From a virus: 21,743 nt of DNA. The DNA lies in IMG/VR virus record IMGVR_UViG_3300038463_000229, positions 1 through 21,743 of that record. One strand, 5' to 3'. This document shows, in pieces, positions 3,458-18,418 of the stretch; the first letter of the stretch is position 1, and every line of letters begins with the position of its first letter. The notes under the pieces are model-generated. The model was given only the letters and a program-made list of their open reading frames with translations, was not told the origin of the DNA and made no database searches. The position numbers and the translations under genes are program-made.

Positions 3458-5419
3458 CTAGTACTTCCAATGATTCGAACCGGTAAGACTTATTGGCGCC
3501 CAATCGGATGGGGCAATACCGCTGAAACGGATAAGCCCATGGACCATAGCGTCGACCTGATCATCATGGACACTCGTCGGGAAAGCGGTCCACTCTTCGA
3601 CAAAGTCGTGAACCCATGGCGCGATTGACGGGTCCGGCAACCAAACGTTGCCCGCTTCAATGCGGGGTGACACGGCATTAACGCGGGCAACCTTTGATCC
3701 AAGCGGCTTCACTCCAATGATGCCGGGCAATTCTTTTTGCAGTGAATCAACTAGCGCGTGACCGTTGGCAGCTAATTCGACCAACTTGGTGGAAGCCGTT
3801 GGCCACTTGGCGGAAAGTCGCCGAAAAGCCGCCACCGTTTCGGTAAAGGTCATTCGGCCGCGCACTAAATCTAGTAGGTATATGTTAGCACCTTTGCGCG
3901 CCAACACCACCCCCACCACGAAGTCCGAGCCTTTGGCGCCGGTGAAAGTCAAATCCCAGGCTTGAATATAGGTGTCCAGCCCTTCGGGGATTGCCTTGTA
4001 ATAGCGCCACCATTCGCGCTTGATAATAGCGCCACCCTCGGGCGCCGGCCGTTGCTGATAAAGCGCCGTCCAGTTGCGCGAGCCCACCGACGCTTTGATT
4101 TTTCCGAGCGTGTCTAGGTTATATTTGCCGGGCCAAAGGGCTTCGCCTGGCTCGCGCGGGTCGACGTCGGTGGTCAACTCGCAAATGGCGGGAAGGTTTA
4201 TCACCGTCCACTGGTCAGCCTTTGGGTCTTCAGCCGCGAGCTTGAGTAACAGCCCGGTTAAATCCCCTTCGTGCCAGCGGGTTTGAACTATCACTATCGC
4301 CGCGTCTTTTTCCGCCCGCGTGCTGAATGTCGAGGTATACCAGTCATAAGTGCGCTCACGGTAAACTACCGAGTCAGCCTCTTCGCGGTTTCTGATTGGG
4401 TCATCGCAAATCAAACAATTGTGTATGAGTATTCCGTCTGCAAAGAAATTGCTGTTTCCTGCAACTTGAATGTCATAGACAGGCTGGCTTTCCGCGCGTA
4501 TTCGCCTAACCACGGAAACGGCGTCACTTTCGATTGATGGTGCTTTTGGTGGCACCCATTGCATAGCGTCACTAGATTGGCAGGTAAATTGTTTCTTTTG
4601 TCGCCGTCTACATGATGGACTAACCGTAATTTCGTCCCCAACACACGCACTATTGGCCGGCCCGTAGCCGCGCTTGCCGAAATATATATGGTGATCCCCG
4701 GTACAACGGATTTTTCTGCCGTTGACCGTTTCAATTTCATATATTTCGGTGGCATGAAACACCCGCGAAGCTTTGACCGGTTGCCATTCCGTGGTGTTGG
4801 TCGTGTGGTTGTATGACAGAACGCGGGGCGAATCATAGGATAACTGGGCTAGGTGGGCAATATCTATTAAGCCATTTTCCGTGGTCACCATTGATCCCGC
4901 CGGTAGGCACGTTCCGCCGAAACCCGTGAGTGACGAGCCAACGCCGGCCGATATAAAACAACCACCATAGCCAACCGTTTCAAACATAGTAGCGTTTTTC
5001 AGCCAAGAGCCCTTATCGGCTTTAGTGGCCTGACTGGCTAACCGTGTGGCGGGGAAAAGCTGTTGATAGCTCGGTGATTCTATAATGCGCTGCACGTCGC
5101 GGTTGTTACGTGACGCAAGTGATTGACCATAGCTGGCAGAAATAATTTTAGTACGCGGGTTAAGGCCAAGCATAAAAGCCGGCAAGTGGTGTGAAATAAG
5201 GGTCGTTTTTCCGTGCCTCGGTGGAATAGTAAAGATGACGCGCTTTAGTTCACCGGAAACCACTTTGTTTAAAGCACGAGCGATAATACGGTGGTGCCAA
5301 TTAACCTCGTAATCCTTGAACACATAGCACGTAAAATTTAAAAGCCCTTTGCGGGCTTTGTCAATTTGGTCTTGTTTTCGTAGCTCATGCTCACGCGCGA
5401 GCAAATCAATTGCTGTCAT
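3458..5419 (-). CDS. terL: Phage terminase large subunit interrupted by an intein
   Basis: This is the ATPase/nuclease motor that packages DNA into the prohead. The precursor has 653 residues: N-extein 1-170, intein 171-334, C-extein 335-653, so the spliced product is 489 residues, normal for TerL. Walker A is IPPRHGKT (65-72). Walker B is LICDDPI (336-342), directly after the intein. The RNase H-like nuclease is in the C-terminal half: QAWDLTFTGAKGSDFVVG gives the first Asp, VELAANGHALV the Glu, and HDDQVDAMVHGL the last Asp pair. SDFVVG, LLDLVRGRMTF and AGNVWLPDP match the C-terminal domain known from psiM2 ORF9-type terminases. The ATG at 5419 lacks a strong Shine-Dalgarno and overlaps the lipoprotein gene by 14 bases, which suggests translational coupling. 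A cysteine at +1 (C335) suits protein splicing. Confidence 0.95.
   Translation of the reverse strand: MTAIDLLAREHELRKQDQIDKARKGLLNFTCYVFKDYEVNWHHRIIARALNKVVSGELKRVIFTIPPRHGKTTLISHHLPAFMLGLNPRTKIISASYGQSLASRNNRDVQRIIESPSYQQLFPATRLASQATKADKGSWLKNATMFETVGYGGCFISAGVGSSLTGFGGTCLPAGSMVTTENGLIDIAHLAQLSYDSPRVLSYNHTTNTTEWQPVKASRVFHATEIYEIETVNGRKIRCTGDHHIYFGKRGYGPANSACVGDEITVSPSCRRRQKKQFTCQSSDAMQWVPPKAPSIESDAVSVVRRIRAESQPVYDIQVAGNSNFFADGILIHNCLICDDPIRNREEADSVVYRERTYDWYTSTFSTRAEKDAAIVIVQTRWHEGDLTGLLLKLAAEDPKADQWTVINLPAICELTTDVDPREPGEALWPGKYNLDTLGKIKASVGSRNWTALYQQRPAPEGGAIIKREWWRYYKAIPEGLDTYIQAWDLTFTGAKGSDFVVGVVLARKGANIYLLDLVRGRMTFTETVAAFRRLSAKWPTASTKLVELAANGHALVDSLQKELPGIIGVKPLGSKVARVNAVSPRIEAGNVWLPDPSIAPWVHDFVEEWTAFPTSVHDDQVDAMVHGLIRFSGIAPSDWAPISLTGSNHWKY
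4411..4836 (-). pseudogene. HNH homing-endonuclease core in the +1 frame of the TerL intein
   Basis: In the +1 frame relative to terL, an open frame of up to 141 codons covers most of the intein. It contains LVHHVDGDKRNNLPANLVTL followed by CNGCHQKHH (about 4537-4620). This is a typical HNH nuclease core, with paired His, Asn-Asn, a second Asn, a CxxC zinc pair and the terminal His. Upstream of VHH the frame has no clear domain and no good ribosome site, so a free-standing gene is doubtful. Removing one A from GTTAGTCC would join the intein strand GDEITV directly to VHHVDGDK, so an older in-frame intein-HNH with a +1 indel and a later compensating indel is the simplest explanation. Programmed frameshifting or a true overlapping gene are alternatives. 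The frame ends at TGA, 7 bases beyond the intein. Confidence 0.65.
4418..4909 (-). other. Intein (protein-splicing element) within TerL
   Basis: The in-frame 164-residue insert begins with Cys1 (CLPAGSMVTTENG, block A). It carries block B (GRKIRCTGDHHIYF, with the TxxH-like TGDHH) and a GYGPANSACVGDEITV strand. It ends with VYDIQVAGNSNFFADGILIHN (blocks F and G, His-Asn) followed by Cys as +1 extein residue. All residues needed for class 1 splicing are present: Cys1, the block B His, the penultimate His, the terminal Asn and Cys+1. It sits immediately before Walker B, a conserved ATPase site of the kind inteins typically occupy. The segment between block B and the C-terminal splicing region (about SPSC...SIES in this frame) resembles no endonuclease; the HNH core there lies in another frame. 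Confidence 0.9.
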
Positions 5420-11891: not shown

Positions 11892-11947
11892 GCTTGGAAG
11901 TTAACCCAGAAGCGGTTAAGGCTTGGGAAGATGCCCCATGGCAGTAA
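11888..11947 (+). pseudogene. 19-codon mini-ORF resembling the C-terminus of DUF6948
   Basis: MSLEVNPEAVKAWEDAPWQ starts at an ATGA overlap and ends just inside the glycine-repeat gene. The tail AVKAWEDAPWQ matches ASKAWESAPWS at the end of the DUF6948 protein at 17847-18161, and both overlap a repeat gene through the same CCATGG (Pro-Trp read in one frame, ATG in the other). It is best read as the surviving end of a second DUF6948 copy, possibly kept as a translational lead-in to the repeat gene. Confidence 0.6.
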
Positions 11948-12168
11948 TCAAAGGCAAATTGCCTGAATGGTGCTCCGGCTACGGCTACGGCTACGGCTAC
12001 GGCTACGGCTACGGCTACGGCTCCGGCGACGGCGACGGCTCCGGCTACGGCGACGGCAACGGCTACGGCAACGGCGACGGCTCCGGCTCCGGCTACGGCT
12101 ACGGCGAAGATATAGTTTCATACGACGCCTTCGCCAAGGCCGCCAGTGACGCAGTGGGGGAGAAATGA
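11938..12168 (+). CDS. Glycine-dipeptide repeat protein, copy 1 (LPEWC head)
   Basis: The start is the ATG inside CCATGG at 11938, translated from within the end of the preceding frame. The 76-residue protein has the head MAVIKGKLPEWC, then 22 dipeptides X-Gly with X = Tyr (11), Ser (5), Asp (4) or Asn (2), then a non-repeat tail EDIVSYDAFAKAASDAVGEK. It shares the head and repeat with the gene at 18152 but has an extra tail. Such Gly/Tyr/Ser/Asp low-complexity segments are usually disordered. No function is known to me for this head-plus-repeat arrangement. The TGA overlaps the next ATG. Confidence 0.7.
   Translation: MAVIKGKLPEWCSGYGYGYGYGYGYGYGSGDGDGSGYGDGNGYGNGDGSGSGYGYGEDIVSYDAFAKAASDAVGEK
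11974..12105 (+). repeat. 6-bp tandem repeat (NNC GGC), 22 units
   Basis: Units TACGGC, TCCGGC, GACGGC and AACGGC follow one another without interruption, including seven identical TACGGC in a row near the 5' end. The six-base period keeps the reading frame whatever the copy number, so slippage would change protein length only. Confidence 0.9.
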
Positions 12169-17846: not shown

Positions 17847-18161
17847 ATGAAAAAGAAAGCAAAGACGACAAAGAAAAAGACGACGAAGGCATTGCGCCCA
17901 GTCATCATTACAACCGCACATCGCGGTGTGTTTTTCGGCTATGCCACGAACACAGATGGCGACACGATCAAGTTGAAAGATGCACGCCTATGCGTCTACT
18001 GGTCCGCTGACCTCAAAGGCTTCATGGGTCTAGCATCGACGGGGCCTACCGCTAAATGCCGGATTGGTCCGCGTGCTGACGTTGAATGCCGAAACGTAAC
18101 AGCTGTCATTGAGGTTACCGATGAAGCATCTAAGGCGTGGGAAAGTGCGCCATGGTCGTGA
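17847..18161 (+). CDS. DUF6948 family protein
   Basis: GGGAGGGAGCAGGG precedes the ATG. After a Lys/Thr-rich head (1-15, KKKAKTTKKKTTK), the 104-residue protein matches the pattern I know as DUF6948: RPVIITTAHRGVFFGYATNT, IKLKDARLCVYWSADLKGFM, LASTGPTAKCRIGPRAD, and a C-terminal VTDEASKAWESAPWS. The family is common in phages and prophages and has no known function. The stop lies inside the start region of the glycine-repeat gene (GCGCCATGG), the same overlap as at 11.9 kb. A shorter relative of the last residues is the mini-ORF at 11888. Confidence 0.75.
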   Translation: MKKKAKTTKKKTTKALRPVIITTAHRGVFFGYATNTDGDTIKLKDARLCVYWSADLKGFMGLASTGPTAKCRIGPRADVECRNVTAVIEVTDEASKAWESAPWS

Positions 18162-18418
18162 GTAAAGGCGTTCTGCCTGAATGGTGCTACGGCGACGGCT
18201 ACGGCGACGGCGACGGCTACGGCGACGGCTACGGCTACGGCTACGGCTCCGGCTCCGGCTCCGGCGACGGCTCCGGCTCCGGCTCCGGCGACGGCTCCGG
18301 CTACGGCTCCGGCGACGGCTCCGGCTACGGCTACGGCGACAGCTCCGGCTACGGCTACGGCTCCGGCTCCGGCGACGGCTCCGGCTACGGCTCCGGCGAC
18401 GGCAGGAGTGAACCTTGA
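18152..18418 (+). CDS. Glycine-dipeptide repeat protein, copy 2 (LPEWC head)
   Basis: The start is the ATG in CCATGG at 18152. The head MVVSKGVLPEWC is nearly that of copy 1 (MAVIKGKLPEWC). It is followed by 36 dipeptides of Tyr, Ser or Asp with Gly (one Asp-Ser) and a very short tail RSEP. There is no non-repeat C-terminal domain as in copy 1. The final codons AGGAGT form the Shine-Dalgarno of the next gene, and the TGA overlaps its TTG start. Predicted disordered and acidic/aromatic, with a single Cys in the head that could form a disulphide or a link to a partner. Function unknown. Confidence 0.7.
   Translation: MVVSKGVLPEWCYGDGYGDGDGYGDGYGYGYGSGSGSGDGSGSGSGDGSGYGSGDGSGYGYGDSSGYGYGSGSGDGSGYGSGDGRSEP
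18188..18403 (+). repeat. 6-bp tandem repeat (NNC GGC), 36 units
   Basis: Units TACGGC, GACGGC and TCCGGC alternate without gaps for 216 bases; one unit is GACAGC (near 18338). Within the array longer blocks repeat, such as GACGGCTCCGGC and TACGGCTACGGC, which points to unequal copying of multi-unit segments. Confidence 0.9.

Follow-up and report, generated by a model that had tools for sequence, protein, structure and literature searches.

Inteins are usually described as a splicing domain and an endonuclease fused in the same reading frame. The locus analysed here raises the question of how an intein in a phage terminase gene, open along its whole length, comes to have an HNH nuclease motif that can be read only in the overlapping +1 frame. 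The window, by which we mean the whole stretch of DNA analysed, comprises positions 1 to 21,743 (21,743 nt) of the IMG/VR virus record IMGVR_UViG_3300038463_000229. As set out below, we favor the reading, with a probability of roughly 0.88, that the intein of the window belongs, in decayed form, to a family of dual-coding inteins, and that in the window a nested HNH gene was cut by one in-frame deletion of approximately 610 nt.

The terL intein and its out-of-frame HNH remnant

The gene encoding the terminase large subunit, whose product has both the ATPase and the nuclease domain of terminases and matches the Terminase_6N, Terminase_6C and psiM2_ORF9 profiles, contains the following features.

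3458 to 5419, minus strand: terL, coding for the terminase large subunit and its intein; 653 aa in a single open frame (ORF and translation)
4418 to 4909, minus strand: class 1-type mini-intein of 164 aa, C171 to N334 (PF14890, TIGR01445, TIGR01443)
4411 to 4755, minus strand: nested +1 ORF, ATG to TGA, 114 codons (MPPKYMKLK...YSYTIV); homing-endonuclease gene remnant
4531 to 4623, minus strand: remnant of the HNH core, LVHHVDGDKRNNLPANLVTLCNGCHQKHHQS, with H, N and H retained and one of two CxxC pairs gone
4414 to 4530, minus strand: C-terminal tail of the HNH protein, conserved in the family alignment (KVTPFPWLGEYARKASLSMTFKLQETAISL...)

A first-pass annotation of this DNA had described the terL frame as open and as carrying complete splicing blocks, and both points hold. 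Measured against the curated Pfam and NCBIfam cut-offs for the intein splicing domain, window TerL scores 44 bits with PF14890, 36.9 with TIGR01445 and 33.8 with TIGR01443, all of which exceed the thresholds. Block A contains C171 in CLPAGSMVTTENG, block B reads CTGDHH in a T-x-x-H pattern, and blocks F/G correspond to VYDIQVAGNSNFFADGILIHN, with a C-terminal ILIHN followed by Cys+1; the residues that define class 1 inteins (Cys or Ser at position 1, T-x-x-H in block B, and a C-terminal HN followed by Cys, Ser or Thr) are therefore all in place. The intein is inserted directly ahead of the Walker B stretch CLICDDP, and intein-free TerL relatives are uninterrupted at this site; in one of them (L003), 443 codons correspond to query positions 22-628, which equals 607 minus 164. 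Because the blocks are complete and intein-free homologues are continuous across the site, we assign the window element to the class 1 inteins, and its sequence suggests that splicing probably still goes on. It is now effectively a mini-intein.

The claim that the HNH is read only in the +1 frame was likewise borne out, with LVHHVDGDKRNNLPANLVTLCNGCHQKHH readable in that frame alone at 4623-4537 of the minus strand, within an ORF spanning 4836-4411. The H-N-H catalytic residues are present (LVHHVDGDKRNNLPANL...CHQKHH). Pfam matches to HNH_3 (E 9e-4) and HNH (E 3e-3) both fall below the Pfam cut-off, and an HMM of the HNH core of the family described below, built with the window excluded, matches the window HNH at E ~1e-11. 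Over 31 HNH codons, the HNH frame is closer than the intein frame in 54/54 relatives (on average 51% versus 24% alike), and the resemblance therefore goes beyond chance. The start region of the nested ORF is homologous to that of the family ATG, with the window ATG two codons upstream of it, and its stop falls within terL codons L336/I337, just beyond the intein, at a position that matches relatives. Its tail is coded opposite intein blocks F/G, where both frames are under constraint. Family members have two CxxC pairs, which bind structural zinc, together with DNA-binding zinc ribbons; in the window, a single CxxC is left and the ribbons are deleted.

Nested HNH genes in TerL inteins at the Walker B site

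Searching with the window intein, the first relatives recovered (L067, L068 and L069-L071) have inteins of 331-373 aa at the same site, with a long domain-less stretch in the intein frame and a complete protein comprising multiple zinc ribbons and a full HNH in the +1 frame. A search with the +1 protein of these relatives returned approximately 30 viral contigs of the same layout and also matched the cultured Gordonia phage Clown (MT771343) and Synechococcus phage S-EIVl (KJ410740), in which the annotation mentions just a terminase. The same layout is found in four Streptomyces plasmids (L151-L154). Our second scan used the splicing domains alone as query and was hence blind to the nuclease and its frame; it extended the collection to the family set given below. 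Among prokaryote genome contigs there were only four weak, short matches, with the intein frame closed in all four, and the distribution of the family is scattered. Two sets of hits were discarded along the way: the first nested-frame query, which retrieved mostly HNH proteins outside TerL inteins, and a match to MT835610, which on reading its sequence is an IscB-like protein and irrelevant here.

The family set comprises 79 non-redundant TerL inteins (95% nucleotide identity), all at the Walker B site of the window. An HNH of the window's family occurs in 65 of the 79, a share that is biased upward since some full-length members were found via their nuclease, and in each of these 65, the window included, it lies in the +1 frame, which was not selected for in either scan. 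Every intein longer than 250 aa carries the HNH (62/62), with full-length members measuring 288-460 aa, and the 14 inteins without an HNH are 117-169 aa long, two of them being cut by contig ends.

These counts bear directly on the cause that the first-pass annotation had proposed, namely that the HNH was once in frame and that a one-base insertion and a later compensating deletion moved it to +1 and silenced the nuclease. The frames do differ and the nuclease looks dead, as this account would have it. However, alignment with the TerL inteins of related phages identified none among the 79 at this site that carries its HNH between blocks B and F in frame with the intein, and because all HNH-bearing members have it at +1, no frame change is needed. 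Moreover, family members keep a whole +1 gene that is under selection, and the loss of most of the domain (the zinc ribbons and the first CxxC) is left unexplained by two single-base indels. We therefore regard a two-indel origin as very improbable. The same annotation had made its reading depend on conservation of the +1 HNH in relatives, and this conservation is present in the HNH-bearing members.

The +1 ORF, measurable in 61 full-length members, has a median length of 311 codons and encodes zinc ribbons and an HNH. The intein frame of these members contains 0 stops, whereas synonymous recoding of the HNH protein with its own codons would lead one to expect ~11.5; the median for the third frame is 16.5 stops. 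We compared codon-level substitution in both frames within the Streptomyces subfamily and found that, in the ribbon/HNH part, differences at HNH codon positions 1, 2 and 3 amount to 0.16, 0.12 and 0.35, and amino acid identity is 79% in the HNH frame versus 55% in the intein frame; opposite blocks F/G, identity is ~90% in either frame. Because substitutions favor HNH third positions and identity is higher in the HNH frame, these data indicate purifying selection on the HNH frame.

The predicted fold of the full-length HNH-frame protein consists of zinc ribbons and a beta-beta-alpha element, with pLDDT mostly 75-94 from the ribbons through the HNH. The well-folded prediction takes in C-terminal helices coded opposite the catalytic C-terminal blocks of the intein, and the first 45 residues, opposite block B, are mostly predicted with low confidence. 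Full-length relatives thus combine an apparently intact HNH fold with purifying selection. By sequence, the best match of the nested HNH proteins is PHROG 1271 (best E 2.6e-33, 15/16 members); a PDB sequence search with the HNH profile returned nothing significant, and a fold search with the HNH-frame protein gave weak HNH-like matches only (DotN and Cap5).

Given that the HNH is at +1 in 65/65 inteins, that the intein frame is free of stops and that the HNH frame is under purifying selection, the nested, overlapping homing-endonuclease gene reads as the ancestral state. TerL inteins of this family accordingly appear, from sequence comparison, to encode two proteins routinely in the same DNA, with at least 60 relatives keeping the nested gene whole. 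A true overlapping gene had been among the alternatives listed in the first-pass annotation; this stands for the ancestral state, seen whole in full-length relatives, and fails for the window, whose copy is a shrunken remnant.

Proposed expression of the nested frame

In intact members, the HNH gene with its zinc ribbons would lie wholly inside and just past the terL intein, in the +1 frame. TerL would be translated together with the intein, which would then be spliced out post-translationally, and the endonuclease would be translated separately from the nested frame, most likely via an internal start codon, and could cut intein-free terL, leading to homing. Several observations make internal initiation the likeliest route for the nested HNH gene. 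Of 60 full-length members, 31 share a nested-frame ATG at a single column when the inteins are aligned; the same ATG occurs in 3 of 12 HNH-less mini-inteins, an excess in full-length members that is not significant (Fisher p ~0.12), and we thus set the conserved ATG aside as proof of initiation and treat it as suggestive. In five members (L086, L091, L069, L083 and L101) the shared ATG is preceded by an AGGAG-type Shine-Dalgarno (SD) sequence, which reads as Arg-Arg or Lys-Glu in the intein frame. Streptomyces-type members have GAT at the shared ATG, a rare choice given that only ~7-17% of their NAY codons end in T. In L084, which lacks the shared ATG, the +1 frame opens one codon before another SD-preceded ATG. 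The nested ORF passes the last codon of the intein in most members and, in those inspected, stops in the first extein codons.

The first-pass annotation had also raised programmed frameshifting. A +1 ribosomal shift from the intein frame would produce a TerL-intein-HNH fusion with no internal initiation. Such a route would accommodate the +1 frame being open well upstream of the zinc ribbons in many members, and the roughly half of full-length members that are without the shared ATG. By contrast, the opening of the +1 frame in L084 so shortly before its own ATG speaks against it, other members have the shared ATG with an SD, and no common slippery site was noticed, albeit without a systematic search. 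Frameshifting is unnecessary to explain the layout, and we consider it unlikely as the route by which the nested gene would be translated.

Probable loss of the nuclease in the window and in other viruses

How the window came to its present form can be read from the positions of two motifs. The GD motif is at ~89-90 in the window and in relatives, and the HH codon has index 97 in the window versus ~300 in relatives; ~203 codons are therefore missing from the window, and in full-length members these encode the zinc ribbons together with the first CxxC pair and the leading half of the HNH domain. The inferred junction is as follows.

4620 to 4639, minus strand: deletion junction, at which the end of the intein N-domain (GDEITV) joins the HNH strand (KLRLVHH)

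Because the frames keep their mutual relation, a single deletion of a multiple of three nucleotides explains the layout of the window, and we infer one in-frame deletion of ~610 nt, its exact end points included, which left both frames open. Among the sequences searched, no close but non-identical relative of the window was found by which to place the deletion directly. After an event of this kind, the intein would persist as a mini-intein that splices, whereas the nuclease gene, stripped of its zinc ribbons and of the front of its HNH domain, would be reduced to 114 codons whose product is probably non-functional. Since the ribbons and the front of the HNH are missing, including one CxxC pair, and the fold prediction for what remains is poor (pLDDT 49), the window nuclease is very probably dead, in agreement with the silencing that had been proposed at the outset.

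We also considered whether the 114-aa product of the window might still be made and serve a function, such as that of a minimal nuclease or of a DNA-binding or inhibitory peptide. The stop-free run of 114 codons has P = 0.042 given the intein protein, an ATG lies near the family start column, the H, N and H residues are retained, and the HNH frame exceeds the intein frame in identity in every one of the 54 relatives compared, all of which would fit a functional product. However, the zinc ribbons and a CxxC pair are gone, the SD ahead of the nested ATG is weak, the fold prediction is poor, and a good part of the conservation that is left is either inherited or imposed by the intein blocks read from the same DNA. 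A useful product thus seems quite doubtful to us, and the open frame of what we read as a remnant indicates instead that it is either recent or weakly selected.

The metagenomic origin of the data could in principle make the layout of the window a sequencing or assembly artefact, an explanation to which we assign a negligible probability. A second IMG/VR record, IMGVR_UViG_3300034065_000059 (59,466 b), shows a 100% match to the window across the 20 kb searched and is identical base for base over 10.4 kb including the terL end, which makes a random assembly error unlikely, and the +1 arrangement is also found in cultured phages and isolate plasmids. This second record has ~130 bases of end overlap and looks circular at ~59.3 kb, and is seemingly the whole genome of the window's virus.

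Similar losses appear to have occurred in other viruses. L230, with a 341-aa intein, and L199, with one of 169 aa, are 99.6-99.97% identical over ~4.4 kb outside one deletion, and the difference between them is a clean 516-nt gap inside the nested gene, without microhomology; as judged from this pair, loss of the nested nuclease is caught in the act. L228 (197 aa) and L161 (154 aa) are further partial forms with an HNH remnant in the +1 frame, and L163 (139 aa) is a mini-intein close to L204 and L207 (414-416 aa). On a tree of the splicing domain, mini-inteins and partial forms are scattered among full-length members, with 11 label changes for the minis; the mini label is no less clustered than when shuffled, on a tree of few columns and of poor resolution, its deep forks included. 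Such scatter, on so poorly resolved a tree, would fit repeated loss.

Relation to known elements

In the open-licence literature other than bioRxiv, we came across no account of a true intein that houses a nuclease gene out of frame, the nearest case being the ShiLan element. ShiLan is an out-of-frame zinc-finger HNH inserted in a phage methylase gene without splicing blocks; it is proposed to home, and the insertion is thought to stay in the host protein (PMC11855218). In both arrangements, a phage gene has an insertion that is free of stops and that contains a zinc-finger HNH when read in a shifted frame. They differ in that the ShiLan HNH is in the third frame and has no intein, whereas the family described here has a true intein with complete blocks and an HNH at +1, and its nested gene, unlike that of ShiLan, stops in the downstream extein. 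Four C5 DNA methylase genes in our data (L110, L111, L120 and L141) lack intein blocks and have a +1 HNH near the C-terminal part; they are ShiLan-like but have the HNH in another frame.

TerL inteins with in-frame LAGLIDADG nucleases are known (PMC5050341), and the dCTP deaminase of cyanophage CL131 has an in-frame HintN + HNH_3 intein (PMC6293099). As in our family, splicing blocks flank the endonuclease region in a phage gene, and the TerL ATPase domain is a known hotspot; in these inteins, however, the nuclease is part of the intein polypeptide, whereas our family encodes it in a separate gene that overlaps the intein. Free-standing phage endonucleases of PHROG 1271 are annotated simply as HNH endonucleases, and the present copies differ from them in being embedded in an intein in the +1 frame. 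With mini-inteins, the end stage of the homing cycle, the window intein shares its size of 164 aa and the retention of splicing blocks; unlike ordinary ones, it still carries, readable but out of frame, the fossil of the endonuclease gene that it has lost.

Two intein-containing family A DNA polymerase genes (L129:1624-5079 and L130:2068-4992) have a different, HNH_3-type nuclease in the +1 frame, indicating that inteins outside terL can also have nested nuclease genes. We think it probable that dual-coding inteins are a widespread and overlooked class among the inteins of phage terL and some DNA polymerase A genes, in which a nested +1 endonuclease is expressed by internal initiation and shares ~300 codons with the intein, and of which the window shows loss without the breaking of splicing. 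Splicing and homing would then be divided between two proteins from the same DNA, with a ~300-codon overlap in at least 61 full-length TerL inteins, and the full, partial and mini forms offer a natural deletion series for study of the homing cycle. That the nuclease gene can decay in three-base steps with the essential terminase unharmed suggests one way in which the overlap may persist.

Dual coding also explains the odd linker sequences in TerL inteins and the way in which terL has been split or misannotated on Streptomyces plasmids. In the four plasmids with this layout (NZ_CP134214, NC_013449, NZ_CP108353 and NZ_CP032230), the annotation of terL consists of no more than an HNH gene and a C-terminal 'hypothetical protein', probably because gene callers are unable to represent the overlap, and these plasmids therefore carry an unrecognised phage terminase.

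Elsewhere in the window, ORFs at 11923-12168 and 18137-18418 contain low-complexity runs of Gly-Tyr, Gly-Asp and Gly-Ser dipeptides encoded by near-perfect six-base repeats, and downstream of terL, at 1530-2783 on the minus strand, lies a gene for a collagen-like GPTGATG repeat protein, probably a structural or fibre protein.
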